64,000 bases of DNA. Origin: Propionicimonas paludicola. Its GTDB lineage: Bacteria > Actinomycetota > Actinomycetes > Propionibacteriales > Propionibacteriaceae. Location: contig NZ_PDJC01000001.1 of NCBI RefSeq assembly GCF_002563675.1, positions 2,604,001-2,668,000 of the forward strand, in the 5' to 3' direction. Positions 22,439-33,985 of the stretch are shown here, in pieces. The translations under genes were made by a program, and so were the position numbers. Under the pieces are notes generated by a model. It was not told the DNA's origin and made no database searches. It was given only the letters and a program-made list of their open reading frames with translations. Within the stretch, counting starts at the first letter, position 1. Each line of letters opens with the position of its first letter.

Positions 22439-23478
22439 CCGACGCCGTCCTGCTGCTCGGCTTCGGCGGCCCGGAGGGCGTCGACGAGGTGGTGCCGTTC
22501 CTGGAGCGGGTCACCACCGGACGCGGGATTCCGCCCGAGCGGCTGGTCGAGGTGGGACAGCACTACTTCACCCTCGGCGGGGTGAGCCCGTTGAACGCTC
22601 AGAACCGTGCGCTGCGGACGGCGCTGGCCGAGGCGCTCGCCGCTCAGGGCTCGCCGATCGAGGTGGCCCTGGCCAACCGGAACTCGCCTCCCTTCGTGCC
22701 GGACGTGCTGGCCGAACTCGCTGCGACCGGACACCGCGAGCTGCTGGCCGTGGCCACGGCGGCCTACTCCGGCTACTCCAGCTGTCGGCAGTACCGGGAG
22801 GATCTGGGGACGGCGCTCGCTGCGTCCGACCTCGGCCTGGCCGTGCGCAAGCTGTCCCCCTTCTACGACCTGCCCGAGTTCGCCGGCACCATCGCCGCGC
22901 TGCTGCTGGAGGCGTTGCCCCGTGACATGTCACTGGACGATCCGGGCACCCAGTTGGTCTTCACCACCCACTCCGTGCCGACCTCGGCGGCCCGGGCGTC
23001 CGGCCCGTCCGGGGACGCGTACGTGAGCCAGCACCGCTGGGTGGCCGAGCAGGTGGTGGGCCATTTGGCCGAGGCCATCGGCGTCACCAAGCCGTGGGAG
23101 CTGGTCTTCCAGTCGCGCAGCGGCCCGCCGACCATGCCCTGGCTGGAGCCGGACGTGAACGACGCGCTGCGGGCCTACGCCGCCGAGGGCGCCACGGCCG
23201 TGGTGCTGGTGCCGATCGGCTTCCTGTCCGATCACATGGAGGTGATCTGGGACCTGGACACCCAGGCCCGCGATACCGCCGCTGAGCTGGGCGTTCGCCT
23301 GGTCCGGACGCCGACCGTGGGCACCGATCCGCGCTTCGTGGCAGCTTTGGCCCGGCGGATCGCCGCCGAGCTGGCCGCGCCGTCCCCCGAGCCTGAGGCC
23401 GGCGACTTCTGCTCCGGCGGCTGCTGCGCGAACCCGCGCCGGGAGCTGCCGACCGTGCCCGGGACGGGACGAGCCTGA
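22435..23478 (+). CDS. hemH: Coproporphyrin III ferrochelatase with [2Fe-2S] cysteines
   Basis: Inserts Fe(II) into coproporphyrin III to form coproheme. The 347-residue protein opens with VLLLGFGGPEG, and has the FTTHSVPTSAA histidine motif and LVFQSRSGPPTMPWLEPDV. An internal cysteine (YSSCRQYRED) and three C-terminal cysteines (FCSGGCCANPR; Cys326, 330, 331) match the arrangement that holds a [2Fe-2S] cluster in actinobacterial ferrochelatases such as that of Mycobacterium tuberculosis. Begins inside the hemQ stop (ATGA) and ends in TGATG shared with hemC-hemD. Confidence 0.96.
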   Translation: MTDAVLLLGFGGPEGVDEVVPFLERVTTGRGIPPERLVEVGQHYFTLGGVSPLNAQNRALRTALAEALAAQGSPIEVALANRNSPPFVPDVLAELAATGHRELLAVATAAYSGYSSCRQYREDLGTALAASDLGLAVRKLSPFYDLPEFAGTIAALLLEALPRDMSLDDPGTQLVFTTHSVPTSAARASGPSGDAYVSQHRWVAEQVVGHLAEAIGVTKPWELVFQSRSGPPTMPWLEPDVNDALRAYAAEGATAVVLVPIGFLSDHMEVIWDLDTQARDTAAELGVRLVRTPTVGTDPRFVAALARRIAAELAAPSPEPEAGDFCSGGCCANPRRELPTVPGTGRA

Positions 23479-25094
23479 TGAAGCTGAGGCTGGCCACCCG
23501 CGGTTCGAAGCTGGCCTGGGCGCAGTCCGGGATGGTCGCCGACCTGCTGCGGACGCACGGGCATGAGGTCGAGTTGGTCCGGGTCACCACGCACGGCGAT
23601 GTGACCACGGCACCCCTGGCCAGCCTGGGCGGAGCCGGGGTGTTCGTCGGTGCCGTGCGGGCGGCCGTGCTGGCCGGTGAGGCCGACCTGGCCGTCCATT
23701 CGTTCAAGGATCTGCCGACCGAGCCGAACGACGACTTCGTGCTCGCCGCGGTGCCCGAGCGCGAGGATCTGGCCGATGCGCTGTGCGCACGCGACAGGCT
23801 GAGTCTGGCCGCGTTGCCGGCCGGAGCGCGGGTGGGGACGGGTTCGCCGCGGCGGGCTGCACAGCTGCTGTTGCGGCGGCCGGATCTGGAGCCGGTGGCG
23901 ATCCGCGGCAACGTGGAGACCCGGCTTTCCCGGGTGGGGGCCGACCTGGACGCTGTGCTGCTGGCTGCGGCCGGACTGCGCCGGCTCGGCTTGGCTGCGG
24001 CCATCACCGAGCGCCTGGATCCGTCGGAGTTCTTGCCGGCCCCGGCCCAGGGTGCGCTGGCGCTGGAGTGCCGCGCCGATGCGTCCGACGAGCTGCGGGC
24101 TGCGCTGGCCGAGGTGGACGACCCGGCTTCCCGGCTGGCGGCGCTGGCCGAGCGCGCCGTGCTGCTCCGGCTGCAGGCCGGCTGTGCGGCCCCGGTCGCC
24201 GCGCATGCCACGGTTGCCGATGGTCGGCTGGAGTTGGTGGCCACGGTCACCGCCGTGGACGGCACCGCCCAGCTCACCGAACACGTCTCCGGAGCATCGA
24301 GCTCAGCCGAGGAGTTGGGACGCCAGGTGGCCGACCAGCTGCTCGCCGCCGGCGCCGCCGACCTCGTCGATCTGTCCGCTGACAAGCCCAAGCCCCTGGC
24401 CGGCCGGACCATCCTGGTCCCCGAGCGGGCTCCCTCCGGCACTGCAGCCACCCTGACCGCCGCCGGCGCCGATGTGATCCTGGCCGCCTTCACCGAGCAG
24501 CAGCCGCTGCCTCTGGACGAGTTGCGTGCCGCCCTGGCCGAAGACTGGGACTGGCTCGTGCTCAGCTCCGCCAAGGCCGTCCCCGCCCTGGTCGAGGCGC
24601 TCGCCGGACGCCCCCTCACCGCTCAGGTTGCCGCCGTCGGCCCAGCCACCGCCGCTGCGCTTTCCGAAGTAGGCCTCACGCCCACCCTCGTCGCCCAGCC
24701 CGCGAACGGCGCCGCCCTGGTCGCCGCCTTCCCCGCCGGACCCGGCCGCATCCTCATTCCCGGCGCCGCCGACCACTCCGTCGAGCCCACCGCAGGTCTT
24801 GTTGCCAAGGGCTGGGACGTCCACAACCTCGCCGTCTACCGGACGATCAGCCTTCCGCTGCCCGAGTCGGTCGTCTCCCGCTGGCAAGCCGGCACCATCG
24901 ACGCCTTCATCGTCACCGCCGGCTCCGTCGCCCGGTCTGCCGTCGCCTCCGCCGGCCTCCCCGGCCCGAAAGTCGTCGCCCTCGGCCCTTCGGCCGCCAG
25001 AGTGTCTACAGAACTCGGCCTCACCGTCGCCGCGACCGCGACCCGCCCCCTCGCCGCCGCTATCGCTGATTCGGTCCTAGTCGCCCTCGCCTGA
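23478..25094 (+). CDS. hemC: Fusion of porphobilinogen deaminase (HemC) and uroporphyrinogen III synthase (HemD)
   Basis: 538-residue bifunctional protein. Residues 1-~300 are HemC, which polymerises four porphobilinogens: LRLATRGSKLAWAQ, VHSFKDLPTE, the arginine-rich RVGTGSPRRAAQLL, AIRGNVETRL, and the dipyrromethane cofactor cysteine in RLQAGCAAPVAAH (Cys236). Residues ~303-538 are HemD, which closes and inverts ring D: GRTILVPERA, WLVLSSAKAV (family: FTS-type), LIPGAADHSVEP and FIVTAGSVAR. Fusion makes sense because HemC's product is unstable and must be cyclised at once. Starts in the hemH stop. It is the last gene before the accessory island. Confidence 0.96.
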   Translation: MKLRLATRGSKLAWAQSGMVADLLRTHGHEVELVRVTTHGDVTTAPLASLGGAGVFVGAVRAAVLAGEADLAVHSFKDLPTEPNDDFVLAAVPEREDLADALCARDRLSLAALPAGARVGTGSPRRAAQLLLRRPDLEPVAIRGNVETRLSRVGADLDAVLLAAAGLRRLGLAAAITERLDPSEFLPAPAQGALALECRADASDELRAALAEVDDPASRLAALAERAVLLRLQAGCAAPVAAHATVADGRLELVATVTAVDGTAQLTEHVSGASSSAEELGRQVADQLLAAGAADLVDLSADKPKPLAGRTILVPERAPSGTAATLTAAGADVILAAFTEQQPLPLDELRAALAEDWDWLVLSSAKAVPALVEALAGRPLTAQVAAVGPATAAALSEVGLTPTLVAQPANGAALVAAFPAGPGRILIPGAADHSVEPTAGLVAKGWDVHNLAVYRTISLPLPESVVSRWQAGTIDAFIVTAGSVARSAVASAGLPGPKVVALGPSAARVSTELGLTVAATATRPLAAAIADSVLVALA

Positions 25095-25170
25095 TCACCC
25101 AGCCCGACTGCCGGTCAGAAAGCCCACACAGCCCGAAACGAGTTGTGTTGCTAGTTCAAGTGAAGCGCCG

Positions 25171-26070
25171 TCAGATCCACTCCTGTAGGAGGGGACCGAC
25201 TGGTGCGCCGTCAAGAGCGACGGCCTCCGCTCGCTGCCGCTTCGGTCGTCGATCCGGTCGCACCGCGCGCGCCAAGTAGTCTGAGTAGAGGTCCCGTTGC
25301 CAGGAGAGCGTGGCAAGAAGCAGGACTTCGATCCGATGTTCGCCGCGACGGTGTTGCAGAGTGGATAGCGACTGCTCAAGCGCCGCAACGTCGGAGACTC
25401 GACCGATTTCGGACGTCCACATCTTCATCGGCTTTGAAGCAATATCAAGCGAGTAGTTGATCGCATTGCGAAAGGCACTCACGTGCTGCGGGTGGCTAAT
25501 GAGCGTTCTCAGTGTGCTGATGATATTCGTAGAGGTCAGATCCAGACCTCCAAGCGTGAGCAGATCTGCCAGCACCAGGTCCAACTCCCTCCAAGCGGCT
25601 TTGTGGCTTCCGCCTTGGCCTTGAGGTTTGCAGATCAGCGTGGAGGTGTTGACGCTTGGGCCTTGCACTACACGAAGGTCATATAGACCTTGTGGCAACA
25701 CGCCACCGCGACCAAGCGTTCGATGGCCAACACCAACGCCGTAGAGTAGCGCCCGACAGGAGAAGAATGCGGCATAGTAGCCCGTTACGGCGGTCCATTC
25801 GGGGTTGATTGGCGAGAAGACCGAATGCAAATAGGTCCGCGTCTGCGTTATTGCGATACTATATGCGGCTTCCCAATCCGCCAGCCACGCCGCTTCGAGA
25901 TACTCCGATGGGATCTCAATCTCAAAACGGGAAGGTCCGGCAAGTTTGGCTTGAGTTCGATACGCGTCCACCATGGAGGCAAGGTCCACTGTGGGCTGCA
26001 ATGCGGATACACCAACAACTAGGCGGTTACGCGCGCGAAGCTCAGCCGCCGCCACCGACGCTGTCAACAC
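25171..26070 (-). CDS. Unknown protein coupled to DGQHR gene, possible HEPN-like
   Basis: 299-residue protein not assigned to a named family. It starts at GTG 26070, two bases after the DGQHR gene stop, so the two are almost certainly co-translated. Largely alpha-helical in appearance, no signal peptide or membrane helix. The segment GYYAAFFSCRALL (~residues 97-109) resembles the YYA.F.AARALL helix of HEPN-type proteins. RTLISH (~residue 187) fits the R-x4-H RNase pattern of that superfamily, and RNAINYSLD follows. These are weak pattern matches, so the HEPN idea is a hypothesis. Codon use and base composition are AT-richer than the flanking hem genes, suggesting transfer. The C-terminus is basic (RPDRRPKRQR), compatible with nucleic acid binding. 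Confidence 0.7.
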   Translation of the reverse strand: MLTASVAAAELRARNRLVVGVSALQPTVDLASMVDAYRTQAKLAGPSRFEIEIPSEYLEAAWLADWEAAYSIAITQTRTYLHSVFSPINPEWTAVTGYYAAFFSCRALLYGVGVGHRTLGRGGVLPQGLYDLRVVQGPSVNTSTLICKPQGQGGSHKAAWRELDLVLADLLTLGGLDLTSTNIISTLRTLISHPQHVSAFRNAINYSLDIASKPMKMWTSEIGRVSDVAALEQSLSTLQHRRGEHRIEVLLLATLSWQRDLYSDYLARAVRPDRRPKRQRAEAVALDGAPVGPLLQEWI

Positions 26071-26072
26071 GA

Positions 26073-27080
26073 TCAGAGCATGTCTGAGGTGACTGCTGCT
26101 GTCGGAATCAACGCAGCGCGCATGTCGGCCACCAGTTTGGCCTTGCTGGGACGGTTGCTGCCGATGTAGTTGTCGAAGGCTAGACGCGCTAAGGGGCGCA
26201 TGATCTCGGTGAGATCGTCAGGCTTCAGTGAATGCCGCTGATCTAGCGACATCGTCACGACATCGTCAAATACCTCGAAAAACGCTTGAAGGATCGTCGA
26301 CTTATTCAAGTGATTGTTCATGGCTCCGCTGGCCGTAACGATCCGGTCAGCAGCGATTAGGAAGTTGATCACCAAGCTCACTTGAAGCTCCGATGAGCCG
26401 ATGTTTGCAAGAGGGCCGGCCTCGAATCGCTTCTTAACGGCGGAATTGAATGTGACCCTCGAGATGAAACCAGATCGCGTTGCCGAGGCCGACATCTTTC
26501 CATAAAGCGGTGACCGGCGATCCCTCGCAACCTCATCGAACAAATGCCGAAGTTGCGACTCAAGATCCGTCTCATTTCCGGCGAGATGCTTGATGTCAAG
26601 GAGCAGTGCGGGTGGCACGCCCTTCTGGTTCGTATTAATGTCGATAAATAGTTGGACCTCGTCTTGCGGGGAGAGGTTGTCGTAGATCGCCACAACGAAA
26701 TCATAATCCGACTGGGTATAGGCCATGCTAAAGAGGCGATGCTGTCCATCGAGGACAAGGAAGTTGGATCCGTTGTTCTGCCAGGTGAGGGTCGAGTCTG
26801 CGAAGTGGAGCCCAGCGTTCCGCTGAGCACTCAGAATGATGTTGGTCGGGATCGATGAACCTCTGTCGAGGTACCTTGCGATGTCCCGGGCTCGGGCCGT
26901 GCTCAGCGCCCTGTTGAAGCCGCCGTGTTCATTGTCTGTGCGGCGGGAAACGAAGCAACTGTCAAGCAGGGCCTTGCCTGGCACGATCGCCGAGTAAAAC
27001 TGATAGTCATTCTGCTGAACCACAGTTGCGGGCACTGACAGTTCGGCTGTTGACACTGGGATCAGTCCTGATTGCGTCAT
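26073..27080 (-). CDS. DGQHR-domain (DndB-like) protein
   Basis: 335-residue cytosolic protein with the namesake motif VLDGQHRLFSM (DGQHR at residues 111-115), preceded by RARDIARYLDRG and IPTNIILSA and followed by LFIDINTNQKGV. This matches the DGQHR domain known from DndB, the regulator of DNA phosphorothioation, and from related proteins in DNA-modification and defence loci. No dndA/C/D/E genes are nearby, so it is not a standard Dnd locus. It is the first gene of a leftward two-gene cassette with the 299-residue protein and is AT-richer than the heme genes. The exact role (nucleotide/DNA binding, regulator, or effector part of a defence pair) cannot be told from sequence. Confidence 0.85.
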   Translation of the reverse strand: MTQSGLIPVSTAELSVPATVVQQNDYQFYSAIVPGKALLDSCFVSRRTDNEHGGFNRALSTARARDIARYLDRGSSIPTNIILSAQRNAGLHFADSTLTWQNNGSNFLVLDGQHRLFSMAYTQSDYDFVVAIYDNLSPQDEVQLFIDINTNQKGVPPALLLDIKHLAGNETDLESQLRHLFDEVARDRRSPLYGKMSASATRSGFISRVTFNSAVKKRFEAGPLANIGSSELQVSLVINFLIAADRIVTASGAMNNHLNKSTILQAFFEVFDDVVTMSLDQRHSLKPDDLTEIMRPLARLAFDNYIGSNRPSKAKLVADMRAALIPTAAVTSDML

Positions 27081-27204
27081 GCGTTCGCGTCCTCTGAATC
27101 GGGCCCAACGGCGTCAAGCCGATGTAGGGCAACCCTACTTGAGGCAGGCTTGCCTTTGGTTCTGCTTGATCAACTGGCGAGGCTTGCCCACCCCGGCCGA
27201 TCTA

Positions 27205-27405
27205 GGCGGGCTGACTGGCAACTAGCGAGGTTCGACAGGGCGGTCGGGCCGCTGGCCCACCAGGGGGTGATGTGGTGGGCTTCGCAGCGGGCGGCGGGGG
27301 GCGTCGCAGCCGGGGAACACACAGCCACGATCACGCACCACCAGAGCAGTCCGGATCGCCGGGGCGATCAGGGGTTCGGCGCGTCCGACATCGAGCGACC
27401 TTGCA
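27205..27405 (-). pseudogene. Broken partial copy of the DUF222/HNH gene
   Basis: On the minus strand this stretch encodes LDVGRAEPLIAPAIRTAL, then VVRDRGCVFPGCDA, nearly the same as the C-terminal part of the HNH protein at 28009-29358. An extra base in a run of G/C then shifts the frame, and AARCEAHHITPWWA continues in another frame. DNA similarity to 28215-28410 is obvious by eye over ~200 bases. No N-terminal part is present. It is a decayed duplicate or recombination scar. Confidence 0.88.
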
Positions 27406-27475
27406 GCAGCTCCCTCTCAACCGAGGCGGATCGGCACGCATGGGCCCACGCGTTCAGCCCGGGCGGCGAAGCTGT

Positions 27476-27898
27476 TCAGCGGAGACAAGACTTCGCTGCT
27501 GCTACTGACGGGTCAGCGGCGCTGATCTTCGCCGTGGTGGATGAGCCCGGACCCCAGTCGCTGAACTGCTGCGCGACGCCGTCGATCGCCATGATGAGAC
27601 CGCCACCGGGCTCGAGAGAGTTGGAGGCCCAGACTCCGACCTGGTCTTCGACGCCAGTGGCCGAGAACTTCATGGCTATGAAGTACACCTTCGAGAAGTC
27701 AGGCGACTTGATCGCCTTGGCCGAGACGAACGTCATTCCCTCGCCAGTAGTGCCCTTCATGATCCCGTTCATGGCGAGGTTCGTGGCTTCGAGGCACTCC
27801 GCGCCCGCACTCGGCATCGATGAGGCCTGCCCGCCGGCGCACGCTGCTAGCGGCATGAGTCCAGCCACGATGACTGCAACTGCGACTGATCTGCGCAT
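27476..27898 (-). CDS. Small lipoprotein of unknown function
   Basis: 140-residue predicted lipoprotein: basic start MRRSV, hydrophobic core, and lipobox LAAC with the lipidated cysteine at residue 20. The mature part has one more pair of cysteines (ECLEATN and the terminal KSCLR), which could form a disulfide. VYFIAMKFSATGVEDQVGVWASN suggests a compact beta-rich fold, but no family is recognised; the string is reported only as residues ~70-92 in outline. It sits between the HNH remnant and the intact HNH gene inside the accessory island. Function unknown. Confidence 0.75.
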   Translation of the reverse strand: MRRSVAVAVIVAGLMPLAACAGGQASSMPSAGAECLEATNLAMNGIMKGTTGEGMTFVSAKAIKSPDFSKVYFIAMKFSATGVEDQVGVWASNSLEPGGGLIMAIDGVAQQFSDWGPGSSTTAKISAADPSVAAAKSCLR

Positions 27899-28008
27899 GA
27901 TGATCTCCCCCTGAAGGTCGCCTCAACTCACGCTACCGAGCGAAAGAGCCCGCGGTGGCGAAACAACCAAGCATCGCAAGCAGAGCACCGCCTCCCTCTG
28001 CTCCCAGG

Positions 28009-29358
28009 TCAGGCAGCTGGGGGCGGGCCCGTGGCCGGGGTGGGCGGTGAGTCGGCTGTGTGTCTCGTATGGCGGGAGTGCCGAACGGGCTTCTGGTTGG
28101 GGTCGATCCGGGCTGGTGGGGTGAACTCGGGGAGGCCGTCGGGGGCGATCCGCAACTGCCATTGGTCGCGGAGGGGGCCGTGGGCGGGTTCGACCAGCGG
28201 GTGATGGGTGTGACACAGGAGTGCGAGGTTGGAAAGGGAGGTTCGTCCGCCGGCCCACCAAGGAATGATGTGATGCGCTTCGCAGCGGGAGGCGGGAGCG
28301 TCGCAGCCAGGGAACACACAGCCACGATCACGCACCAGGAGAGCAGTCCGAATCGCCGGGGTCACCAGGCGCTCGGCGCGCCCGACGTCCAACACTTCAG
28401 AGTGGGAGCCGAGGACGACCGGAATCAGTTCGGCGTCGCAGCAGATCCGACGCAACTCACCCGCAGGCAACTGCTGCCCAGCTCCAACCAGCCCCACTCC
28501 AGCCGCACCAGCCAACAGCTGGGCATAGTCCAGCTGCACCAGCACCCGTCCGCCCCACGACTCTTTGCCCTTGCCACCGGCCTGAATCAGCGCAATCAGC
28601 GCATCAGCTCGCCGCTGATCGGCGGTCGGCAGCTCAGCGAGCCGATCGCGGCGCTCCAGCAGCGTCCGCCGAGTCTGCTCGGCCATGGCGTCCAGCTGCG
28701 CGATCCAGGCCTCGGCCGCGAGCCGGGGCAGCGAACCATCAAACCGGACCGATGCACCCTCGAAGAAGAACCGCAACGACCGCTGCCGGTGCGCCGCCTC
28801 CGCCTCACGCTGCAACCGAGCCTCCATGGTCTCGGCAGCCGTGGCCGGCGCGACCGCAGCCAGCACCTTGCCGGCCGACCGGGTCAGCTGATCCGCATCC
28901 ATCTGACCAGCCCAGCCCACCAACAACTCCTCAGCCTGCGCGGCCTGCTCACCACTCAACTGAGGCGCCAGACCGTCCAGCAGCCCAGTGATCGCCCGCA
29001 CCTGACCGGTACCGAGCCGCCCGGCCACCGCAGCCTCACCCACCACCGGATGCGAACCCAACGAGCGGGCCTGCCGCACCGCACCGGCCGCCTCCCGACG
29101 AGAGACCGTCTCGCCCATCCCGATCCAGGAACCCAACCCCGTCCCGGCAGCCCGCTCCGCAGCATGGGCACGTTCCGCCTCGGCGGTCACCACCGACGCC
29201 AACGCGTCCACCCGGCTCCGCACCCGCCGAGCCAACCGCACCAAAGCCAGCCGATCAGCCGGATCCATGCGATGCTCCCGCGGCGCCACCCGATCCAGCA
29301 GCGCGTCAACCTCGGCCAACACCTGGCTGGCCGGAAGGAGGCTGCTGCTCGTCGTCAT
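28009..29358 (-). CDS. DUF222/HNH endonuclease-domain protein (13E12 repeat family type)
   Basis: 449-residue protein: an N-terminal helical DUF222 region (residues ~10-330, with DPADRLALVRLARRVRSR and repeated helices) followed by an HNH nuclease motif, CVFPGCDAPASRCEAHHI, then WWAGGRTSLSNLALLCHTHH, at ~residues 350-395. The zinc/catalytic Cys and His residues are present. The tail is Pro/His-rich and probably disordered. This family (the 13E12-type repeats of mycobacteria) is multi-copy and variable among actinobacteria, and behaves like a mobile or recombination-prone gene. A decayed partial copy lies 0.8 kb downstream (27205-27405). Physiological role unknown. Confidence 0.9.
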   Translation of the reverse strand: MTTSSSLLPASQVLAEVDALLDRVAPREHRMDPADRLALVRLARRVRSRVDALASVVTAEAERAHAAERAAGTGLGSWIGMGETVSRREAAGAVRQARSLGSHPVVGEAAVAGRLGTGQVRAITGLLDGLAPQLSGEQAAQAEELLVGWAGQMDADQLTRSAGKVLAAVAPATAAETMEARLQREAEAAHRQRSLRFFFEGASVRFDGSLPRLAAEAWIAQLDAMAEQTRRTLLERRDRLAELPTADQRRADALIALIQAGGKGKESWGGRVLVQLDYAQLLAGAAGVGLVGAGQQLPAGELRRICCDAELIPVVLGSHSEVLDVGRAERLVTPAIRTALLVRDRGCVFPGCDAPASRCEAHHIIPWWAGGRTSLSNLALLCHTHHPLVEPAHGPLRDQWQLRIAPDGLPEFTPPARIDPNQKPVRHSRHTRHTADSPPTPATGPPPAA

Positions 29359-31839: not shown

Positions 31840-32802
31840 TCAGCACGGTGAGACCCCTTCGTCGCTTGGCGCCACCATGGGCCGGAACAGCCAGGTGTCG
31901 TCGTTCGTGGTGCCGCTGCAGAGCTGCCAGGAGAGCACCTCGGATCGCGGCCAAATCCTTGCCTGAGTCAGACTCTCGTCCAGCACAAGGAAGTCATCGC
32001 GTCCTCGAACCAGGTATCCAGGCCGAGATCCCTCTTCCGTGGTAACGAGGTAAAGCGCGGAGAAGGTGGGGGGCGAGATTAGGAGCGAAACAAGGTAGAG
32101 GCTAGCTGCAGACCAAACCGCCGCTAACCTCGCCAGATCCGCAGGAAGTTTCAGCTGGCCTTCGCGGTCCTGTATCTCTTGGACGAGAGCCTCACGTTCG
32201 TTCTCGTTCAGTCGCGCAGAGTCTCTGGCACGCCTCGAGAGACCTCGGATCTGGCCGTCGCCGTGGTAACGAGACCTTCGCCCCCATTCAGCGAGGTCAA
32301 TCACTCTTGTGGTTCCTCGGCCACGTGATCGGCGAAGATCGGCATACCGAACAAGCAGATAGCAAGCAACACCGCACAGCCAGGAGATGTTGGGAATGGC
32401 CTTGCTGAACACGGTTAGGTCACAGACCACAGCCACTGCCCAGAACACCTGCATCCGAGGAGACGTACTAGAAGTGGCCAGTGACACGAAGCCCCAAACC
32501 AGCGACATCGGCAGCAGGCTGGCACCAAGGGTAGCGAGAGTCATTCCGGCTAGTGCCGACAACGACACCCTCTCCATAACCGCGGCCAAGTACTGCCCGT
32601 TGCCACCAAGCCCCAGAACCAGCTTGATTAGCGTTACCCCGAGGGAGGCAGTTACGAAAACCCCAGCTAGGCCGGCTAGTCTGGCGAGAATCTGAAGATT
32701 TGTCTGCCTCTCGGCAAGGAGGTCCCGCGGCACCGGGCGCGGAGGAAGGATCAGCGCCCAAAACCTCAGGCGCCACAGCCGAAAGCGCCGCCTGAGGCTC
32801 AC
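31840..32802 (-). CDS. Membrane protein of unknown function
   Basis: About 320 residues from GTG 32802 (VSLRRRFRLWRLRFWALI); a longer frame to 33027 would overlap the alcohol dehydrogenase tail and is not used. Several hydrophobic helices are seen in residues ~40-150 and again near ~225-245, with a soluble basic middle section (RYADLRRSRGRG, then RYHGDGQIRGLSRRARD). The C-terminal ~70 residues (YLVRGRDDFLVLDES, WPRSEVLSWQLC) look like a small beta domain. No known family was recognised. The region is AT-richer than its neighbours, so it may have been acquired. It runs toward hemL tail-to-tail. Confidence 0.6.
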   Translation of the reverse strand: MSLRRRFRLWRLRFWALILPPRPVPRDLLAERQTNLQILARLAGLAGVFVTASLGVTLIKLVLGLGGNGQYLAAVMERVSLSALAGMTLATLGASLLPMSLVWGFVSLATSSTSPRMQVFWAVAVVCDLTVFSKAIPNISWLCGVACYLLVRYADLRRSRGRGTTRVIDLAEWGRRSRYHGDGQIRGLSRRARDSARLNENEREALVQEIQDREGQLKLPADLARLAAVWSAASLYLVSLLISPPTFSALYLVTTEEGSRPGYLVRGRDDFLVLDESLTQARIWPRSEVLSWQLCSGTTNDDTWLFRPMVAPSDEGVSPC

Positions 32803-32968
32803 AGCGGTGAGGATATCCGAACAGCGAAGAGCAGTAGTGTGTCGAATCCAAACGCGCCGCGCGCAGGGCTGTGCGCGCCGACCCAAGTGGCTCGCGTGCC
32901 TTAGTGCCGCAAGGCACCAAGCGCGTGAAGGCCTTGCGGTCCAGCCGGCCGAGCGACCCGCGGCAGCC

Positions 32969-33985
32969 TCAGTTGTGCAGCACGGCCCGCGACGAGAGCC
33001 GTCCGGCGGCGAGCAAGTCGAGAGCATGGGCGGCGTCCGCCATCCCGAACCGCTCGACGACAGTGGTGATCTTCCCGGACGCGGCCAGCGCCAGCACCGT
33101 CCGCATCTGCTCCCGGTTGCCCAGGATGGACGCCTTGATGGTCTGTGCCTTGTTGAAGTGGAAGCCGGTCACGTTCAGCGGTACGCCGGCCACCAGCGTC
33201 CCGCCCCACTTCAGCGCGGCCAGGGCCTGCGCAGTGACCACATCGGCGTCGGCGAAGGTCAAGACCACGTCCGCAGAGTCCTCCAACGCGGCCAGCTGCG
33301 CCGGGTCGGTCGAGTCCACGGCGTCCGACGCCCCCAGCTCGCGAGCCACCCGCAGGTGCTCGGCATTGCGTCCGACCGCCACGACGTCACCCCCGGCCAA
33401 TCGGGCGAACTGGACGGCCATGTGCCCGACCCCACCCAGCCCGAAGACGGCCACCCGCTGACCAGGCACGATGCCGGCCTTTTCGACGGCGCCGTACGCG
33501 GTGATTCCCGGGCAGAACAGCGGCGCGGCGTCGATCAGGTCGAGCTCGGCGGGGACCGGGTAGGTGTGAGCAGCATTGGCCAGCATGAACTCGGCATAGC
33601 CGCCATTCACATGCTCCCCGGTAATGATCCGGCGGTGGCACAGCTGCTCGCGTCCGCTGGTGCAGAACTCGCACTCCTCACACGTCCACCACACCGGCTG
33701 GACGCCCACCGGGTCACCGACCGCGAAGTCGCTGACACCGGCGCCGAGGGCAGCCACCCGTCCGGTCACCTCGTGGCCGGGGATGATCGGTGAGATCGCC
33801 GGCACCCCGCCGGCCACCCAGTCGCCCTGCACCATGTGCAGGTTCGAGCGGCACACCCCGCAGGAGGCCACCTCGATCACCAGTTGCCCCGGCCCGGGCT
33901 CGGGACGCGTGGTCGTCCGCCAGCTCAGTGGCGCCGACGCCAGCGGGCCGGGGGTATCAAGTTCCTGCGCGAACATCGAAGTCAT
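32969..33985 (-). CDS. Zinc-dependent alcohol dehydrogenase (MDR family)
   Basis: 338-residue medium-chain dehydrogenase. Start ATG 33985 (MTSMFAQELDTPG); the longer frame would cross the hairpin at 34038-34085. The catalytic zinc site is in ASCGVCRSNLHMVQGDW and PGHEVTG, and the structural zinc site is CEECEFCTSGREQLC. The nucleotide-binding loop is VFGLGGVGHMAVQFA (~residue 175). It resembles AdhA-type enzymes acting on primary alcohols with NAD(P). It follows the dhaK-dhaL operon in the same direction but beyond a terminator-like hairpin, so joint use with that pathway is possible but not shown. Confidence 0.92.
   Translation of the reverse strand: MTSMFAQELDTPGPLASAPLSWRTTTRPEPGPGQLVIEVASCGVCRSNLHMVQGDWVAGGVPAISPIIPGHEVTGRVAALGAGVSDFAVGDPVGVQPVWWTCEECEFCTSGREQLCHRRIITGEHVNGGYAEFMLANAAHTYPVPAELDLIDAAPLFCPGITAYGAVEKAGIVPGQRVAVFGLGGVGHMAVQFARLAGGDVVAVGRNAEHLRVARELGASDAVDSTDPAQLAALEDSADVVLTFADADVVTAQALAALKWGGTLVAGVPLNVTGFHFNKAQTIKASILGNREQMRTVLALAASGKITTVVERFGMADAAHALDLLAAGRLSSRAVLHN

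Follow-up and report, generated by a model that had tools for sequence, protein, structure and literature searches.

A DGQHR-domain gene (A) and the gene that directly follows it (B), whose product is probably HEPN-like, form a conserved and co-diverging unit that occurs in phages, on plasmids and in the chromosomes of scattered bacteria. We consider the A-B pair a good candidate for a so far undescribed system of defence against phages. On balance, we take it to be a horizontally moving two-component module of anti-phage (inter-element) immunity, in which a putative DGQHR sensor would control a putative HEPN effector with an alternative active site.

A co-diverging pair of genes

In the window, that is, the whole 64-kb stretch of DNA that was analyzed, gene A (26073..27080, minus strand) starts with ATG and encodes 335 aa, while gene B (25171..26070, minus strand) starts with GTG, encodes 299 aa and follows A after a gap of 2 nt. 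The first-pass annotation had described this pair with the same size of B, GTG start and spacing and had placed the DGQHR motif at residues 111-115; all of these were correct when we re-derived the coordinates. On one side the pair is bordered by hemCD (23478-25094) and on the other by a DUF222-HNH gene, followed by hemB and hemL, with heme gene names taken from the first-pass annotation and from our own reading by eye. The pair is also AT-richer than its surroundings, as had been claimed, with a GC content of 56.6% compared to 69.8% for the whole window. GC values as low as this are found in only 3 of the 1,242 sliding windows of the same size (step 50) along the 64 kb, and all three overlap the pair. 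Since full-length co-linear homologs of both A and B exist elsewhere, we consider them genuine genes and not chance ORFs.

The protein encoded by A scores 110.9 bits against TIGR03187 (E-value 8.9e-32, curated cut-off 58.85) and 32.8 bits against PF14072 (E-value 5.2e-8, cut-off 29.1), and therefore has a DGQHR domain of the DndB/ParB-Srx superfamily. Its DGQHR motif (residues 111-115; 26736..26750, minus strand) and its FxxxN motif (F145-N149; 26634..26648, minus strand; as defined in the accessible text of PMC4619093) show no variation across all 29 aligned A proteins. In the QR pair of the same alignment R57 is invariant, while Q56 is conserved in more than 90% of the relatives and is replaced by N in the window copy. 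At E ≤ 0.001, DGQHR is matched only once in the genome of the window. The score against the Dnd-specific model TIGR04172 is 74.7 bits, far under the cut-off of 450, and dndC is absent from the genome. We therefore rejected a linkage of A to Dnd systems, and the earlier description of the pair as standing without dnd genes holds, with dndC as the gene that was searched.

When the window B was searched as a single sequence it appeared to be an orphan. No full-length relative was found in the relatives search (0 of 59 other genomes), B was not found in 29 other genomes of the same genus, only short matches in two genomes (E-values 0.001-0.005) were returned from 295 other genomes of the phylum, and nothing was returned from plasmids, phages, genome contigs or viral contigs. 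The relatives of A overturned this reading. A search of the genome collection with A returned six loci, five of which cover most of A and the sixth of which is partial, at 27%. The five near-full relatives come from unrelated phyla and belong to Fibrobacter (43% identity), Solitalea (42%), Lewinella (41%), Chryseobacterium (41%) and a Clostridia MAG (34%). In four of these loci the next gene after A encodes a protein of around 300 aa with the B motifs, and in the fifth the contig stops around 200 nt past A.

Overall, of the 46 A ORFs (A profile, E ≤ 1e-20, de-duplicated set), 37 are immediately followed by B, corresponding to 34 distinct B sequences. For this count we removed 14 locus ids, each of which duplicated either the window or a contig already present under a different id; the remaining loci are partly non-independent, some being near-identical (for example L049 and L074-L076, with the same A score). 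Among 5,175 ORFs we detected 37 B hits, every one directly behind A. The B profile was refined by iteration over these same ORFs, which makes the E-values of its later rounds optimistic; already in the first round, the seed profile built on nine sequences retrieved 24 B ORFs, 15 of them beyond the seed. The nine A ORFs without B comprise one at a contig end (L014), two with no recognizable B and interrupted frames behind A (L054 and L058), two divergent A genes (L036 and L037) and four A proteins of 759-821 aa (L005, L020, L032 and L033). When searches started from B, all eight viral loci that they returned (three new contigs and five already seen) had A upstream, and all 19 matched plasmid records contained A. 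In the searches made, B was encountered only adjoining A. Further A loci have B in 2 of 11 cases in the phylum of Solitalea, the other nine having divergent or long A, and in 0 of 4 cases, all of divergent A, in the phylum of the Clostridia MAG. The adjacency noticed first in the window thus recurs in other genomes.

The two proteins also diverge together. Distances between A proteins and between their B partners are strongly correlated (33 pairs, Mantel r 0.823, none of 5,000 permutations as high), and the same trend is detectable when group 1 (22 pairs, r 0.879, 0 of 2,000 permutations) and group 2 (10 pairs, r 0.804, 1 of 2,000) are analyzed separately. A and B are therefore a conserved, co-diverging unit.

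Other DGQHR layouts were seen alongside the pair. A divergent DGQHR branch without B has a hydrophobic protein upstream (L095:2226-2723, L096:2127-2642, L100:2157-2789 and L167:2138-2665; open frames of 166-211 aa, no Pfam match), and possibly represents a second module, composed of DGQHR and a membrane partner. In L168 (842-1405), a DGQHR-like gene has an HNH nuclease gene directly after it, which resembles a split GmrSD-like layout. Long or divergent DGQHR genes in L032, L033 and L095 adjoin proteins with the pattern FxxWxGGK...DPPY, which we take to be a Dam-like motif. On the conjugative plasmid pNL1 of Novosphingobium (L020), two DGQHR genes flank radical SAM and ATP-binding protein genes.

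Carriage, phage hotspot and insertion site

The A-B module is rare. At E ≤ 1e-15, A is found in 12 of 345 genomes of the phylum of Solitalea, only two of them close and one of these being Solitalea itself, and in 5 of 348 genomes of the phylum of the Clostridia MAG, one being the MAG itself. Matches to A occur in 35 plasmid records and seven phage records. Among the five plasmids that we opened, the pair is present in those of Acinetobacter, Providencia, Burkholderia glumae and Leptospira weilii and is not present on Novosphingobium pNL1; both opened phages, the Pf-type phage PfAC19 and an Acinetobacter phage, carry it. Plasmid searches with the B of Solitalea and that of the Acinetobacter phage as queries returned nothing, and DNA searches with L062 and L038 found no copies of the pair in E. 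coli. Phages, plasmids and the chromosomes of scattered bacteria have thus repeatedly carried the pair, which is the kind of recurrence that the first-pass annotation had proposed to look for.

The position of the pair within phages points to defence. We examined 43 loci, two of which have A without B, for the phage genes gpA and gpQ, named from homology and from Pfam tallies that do not list individual members (3 of 40 upstream neighbors match Phage_GPA, 5 of 47 downstream neighbors match Phage_portal). In six loci gpA lies before and gpQ after the pair (L055, L056, L059, L061, L163 and L165; in L056 gpA is a 173-aa piece at the contig start), and in five more gpQ lies after it and gpA was not detected (L038, L039, L057, L079 and L164). 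These gpQ-only loci include groups 2 and 3. The region between gpA and gpQ of E. coli P2-like phages is reported to be a hotspot of anti-phage genes (PMC9122126), and the 11 viral loci thus place the pair at a published P2-like defence hotspot. In L062, the gene downstream of B is an integrase.

One subgroup is linked to a DNA methyltransferase gene. All 13 group-2 loci (10 distinct B) have an N6_N4 DNA methyltransferase gene directly upstream of A. In group 1, the gene order of L016 is methyltransferase, NotI endonuclease, A and B, and the other loci of the group have no match to either of two methyltransferase queries. The window copy has no adjoining methyltransferase.

In the window the pair sits in a variable island between hemCD and the DUF222-HNH gene (25070..28008). 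The closest genome of the same genus, G028, is around 93% identical to the window in DNA up to position 25069 and again from 28009, and has 3.5 kb of other DNA in between; the only part of the island that matches it is a 168-nt DUF222 piece, elsewhere in the G028 locus. The cargo of G028 at the site (L147:3076-6576) includes a 749-aa AAA_21/AAA_15 ATPase, which matches an OLD-like TOPRIM domain below the threshold, and an uncharacterized protein of 412 aa encoded on the other strand. Another genome of the genus, G022, has a PIN gene preceded by a weak RHH antitoxin-like gene (L156:1770-2545) between hemCD and the gene before hemB, a probable RHH/PIN pair. Given the OLD-like ATPase and the RHH/PIN genes, the site seems to be one where defence-type cargo is swapped. 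The 168-nt piece is a duplicated part of the DUF222-HNH gene (27225..27392, minus strand; other copy at 28223-28389). The two copies, around 1 kb apart, flank a 140-aa ORF with a lipoprotein-like start (27476..27898, minus strand; no Pfam match, signal judged by eye), and related pieces are present at three more places in the genome; this duplication may help cargo exchange. A second AT-richer patch, after hemL, contains a 395-aa ORF (31840-33027, minus strand) with no Pfam match.

Conserved residues of B and its probable relation to HEPN proteins

As the first-pass annotation stated, B belongs to no named family: neither NCBIfam nor PADLOC contains a match to it, and its sole Pfam hit is to an unrelated model (E-value 0.11). 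No HEPN model was matched by the window B alone. At the level of the family, a search of 177,635 PDB sequences with the B profile, up to an E-value of 10, returned only two matches, both to HEPN proteins (E-values 0.07 and 0.08). PF05168 is the Pfam family matched most often by B proteins (5 of 27 members at E ≤ 1, best E-value 0.0015), with all best scores under the Pfam cut-off. The B of L038, the one matching member pinned down when 9 of the 27 members, plus L048, were re-scanned one by one, scores 18.7 bits, below the cut-off of 22 bits.

We aligned the B profile with a template made of 9 of 19 fetched PF05168 proteins, seeded on their YY motif (the YY branch). In these nine proteins YY is followed by a His and then by R or K-x3-D-Y; the remaining ten have a different pattern, without the combined YY plus R-x3-[DN]-Y. 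The alignment spans 46 columns with a score of 33.8-36.5 and an hhalign probability of 45% (62% with group 3), compared to at most 16.0 (probability < 1%) for 40 column shuffles, 12.1 for the reversed profile and 15.4 for DGQHR. Taken alone, group 1 reaches only 10.8% and group 2 only 0.5%, so that the HEPN signal is weak and comes from the YY helix; the two groups themselves are one family (hhalign probability 96.4%, 256 columns). The order YY, His, R-x3-[DN]-Y, which is common to B and the YY branch, strengthens the profile evidence.

Across 33 B proteins the conserved core consists of Y98, then H156-x3-W160 and then R201-N-x2-[NQ]-Y206. The first element, YYAAFFSCRALL (residues 98-109; 25744..25779, minus strand), has Y at position 98 in 33 of 33 proteins and at position 99 in 23. 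The second, SHKAAW (residues 155-160; 25591..25608, minus strand), has both H156 and W160 in 31 of 33, and in the third, RNAINY (residues 201-206; 25453..25470, minus strand), R201 and Y206 are present in all 33 and N202 in 30. In the first nine sequences, the window B and eight relatives that are only 15-24% identical to it, W92, Y98, Y99, H156, R201, N202, N205 and Y206 are invariant. H156 and R201 are conserved far above the rest of the protein, as would suit an active site. The classical Rx4-6H is absent, the residue five past R201 being Y206 in 33 of 33 proteins.

The first-pass annotation had proposed a HEPN-like partner and had seen its catalytic motif in RTLISH (residues 188-193; 25492..25509, minus strand). 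The first part stands in kind, on the PF05168 and PDB matches described above, weak as they are. The proposed residues are wrong: of the 33 B proteins, eight have Arg at position 188 and one has His at position 193, and RTLISH is therefore not an active site of B. According to the accessible text of PMC3710099, HEPN-T proteins (AF0298 type) and AbiV typically lose the histidine of Rx4-6H and keep the basic residue, and a second conserved His, coming from an insert between helices 2 and 3, may form an alternative active site. B has this pattern in the order of its residues, with the Arg kept (R201), the classical His lost and a second His N-terminal to it (H156). We therefore consider B probably HEPN-like and H156 its candidate alternative catalytic His.

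Several other matches of the 27 B members were judged to be due to chance, because they come without supporting residue pattern or context. These are PADLOC CARF_m4 (one member, 4.2e-4, better than any HEPN score), PHROG 4353 (one, 0.0047), DnaG_cat_HB (one), Na_K-ATPase (two), CsoSCA_N (one) and five other Pfam families (one each). MAE_28990 is not among the nine Pfam families matched by the 27 members; Pfam presumably holds a HEPN model of that family.

Possible function and known systems

The DGQHR domain is reported to be related to the ParB/Srx fold and to DUF262/GmrS (PMC4619093). DndB is described as a protein of the ParB superfamily; it is claimed to act in negative regulation in an ATP-dependent manner and may be an effector with NTPase or nuclease activity (PMC10853773). 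We infer that A is a nucleotide-using DNA sensor. In the immunity module that we favor, A, as a ParB/Srx-type DGQHR protein, would recognize an infection-linked state of DNA, possibly a modification, through nucleotide and DNA binding. Upon this trigger A would release or activate B, a HEPN-like effector in which H156 and R201, together with N202 and Y206, would probably form the active site and replace the classical Rx4-6H. The activated B would then cut RNA and thereby stop the infected cell or the invader. The methyltransferase of group 2 allows a more specific version, which we put forward tentatively, as immunity similar to restriction-modification with an RNase as the restriction arm. 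The methyltransferase would mark self DNA, the DGQHR NTPase would detect whether this mark is present or absent, and RNA would be destroyed by the HEPN protein through its alternative His/Arg site; the family, largely phage-borne, would include stand-alone forms, such as that of the window, which would read a state set elsewhere.

The main alternative, which we regard as rather unlikely, inverts these roles. A would be the effector, acting as an NTPase or nuclease of ParB/Srx type that depletes nucleotides or introduces nicks into DNA, and B a non-catalytic helical binding subunit, as is thought for some HEPN domains without Rx4-6H. ParB/Srx proteins with NTPase and nuclease activity have been reported, and DndB has been proposed as a possible nucleotide-degrading effector (PMC10853773, PMC4619093); the invariant DGQHR motif of A and the loss of the canonical catalytic His from B agree with this. 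Against it, the exceptional conservation of H156 and R201 is better suited to a catalytic B. An addiction (toxin-antitoxin) module, in which B would be a HEPN toxin, A its neutralizer or repressor and any effect on phages secondary, appears improbable. HEPN toxins do occur in toxin-antitoxin systems (PMC3710099), and the two-gene format, the carriage on plasmids and the probable RHH/PIN pair behind hemCD in G022 would fit. However, A is a 330-aa protein of DNA-modification type, and a plain toxin-antitoxin system leaves the methyltransferase linkage of one subgroup unexplained. It is very improbable that A acts as a transcriptional regulator in the manner of DndB, with B as an accessory, and that the pair regulates a modification system with no direct role in defence: DndB, with which A shares its domain, does bind its own promoter (PMC4507180), but the genome has no dndC, the two methyltransferase queries match no group-1 locus except L016, and the pair occupies the P2 hotspot in 11 loci.

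In annotations, DGQHR proteins figure as accessories of DNA modification, whereas the branch to which A belongs keeps a single constant partner across phages, plasmids and chromosomes. The pair offers a small system in which two questions can be tested, namely the signal sensed by DGQHR/DndB proteins and the possible nuclease activity of HEPN domains that lack the classical histidine. In the literature searched, which excluded supplements, most subscription papers and preprints, we found no paper combining DGQHR and HEPN. The pair is not described in the accessible text of PMC10853773, PMC12839542 and PMC8649781, and that of PMC9519451, in which HEPN-like domains are found in 6 of 21 systems, does not mention DGQHR or DndB.

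Known systems share single features with the pair. A has in common with DndB/DGQHR proteins (PF14072, TIGR03187) the domain and the DGQHR and FxxxN motifs, but its genome lacks dndC. In the type IV restriction system GmrSD, the ParB/Srx-fold sensor GmrS is related to DGQHR (PMC4619093); its partner is the HNH protein GmrD, whereas that of A is HEPN-like. The gpA-gpQ location is shared with the defence systems of the P2 hotspot, and the accessible text of PMC9122126 describes none with this composition. B resembles HEPN-T (YY branch of PF05168, 9 of 19 proteins) and AbiV in the ordered YY helix, upstream His and R-x3-[DN]-Y and in the missing His of Rx4-6H (PMC3710099). It differs from them in its length of around 300 aa, its N-terminal region, its longer insert and its Pfam score under the cut-off (L038), and is tied to a DGQHR protein where the HEPN-T/AbiV comparison has a nucleotidyltransferase. 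A published relative of the pair in arrangement is the MAE_28990 HEPN family, which occurs beside a ParB nuclease and a DNA methylase (PMC3710099, Table 1); unlike B, it keeps the Rx4-6H motif.
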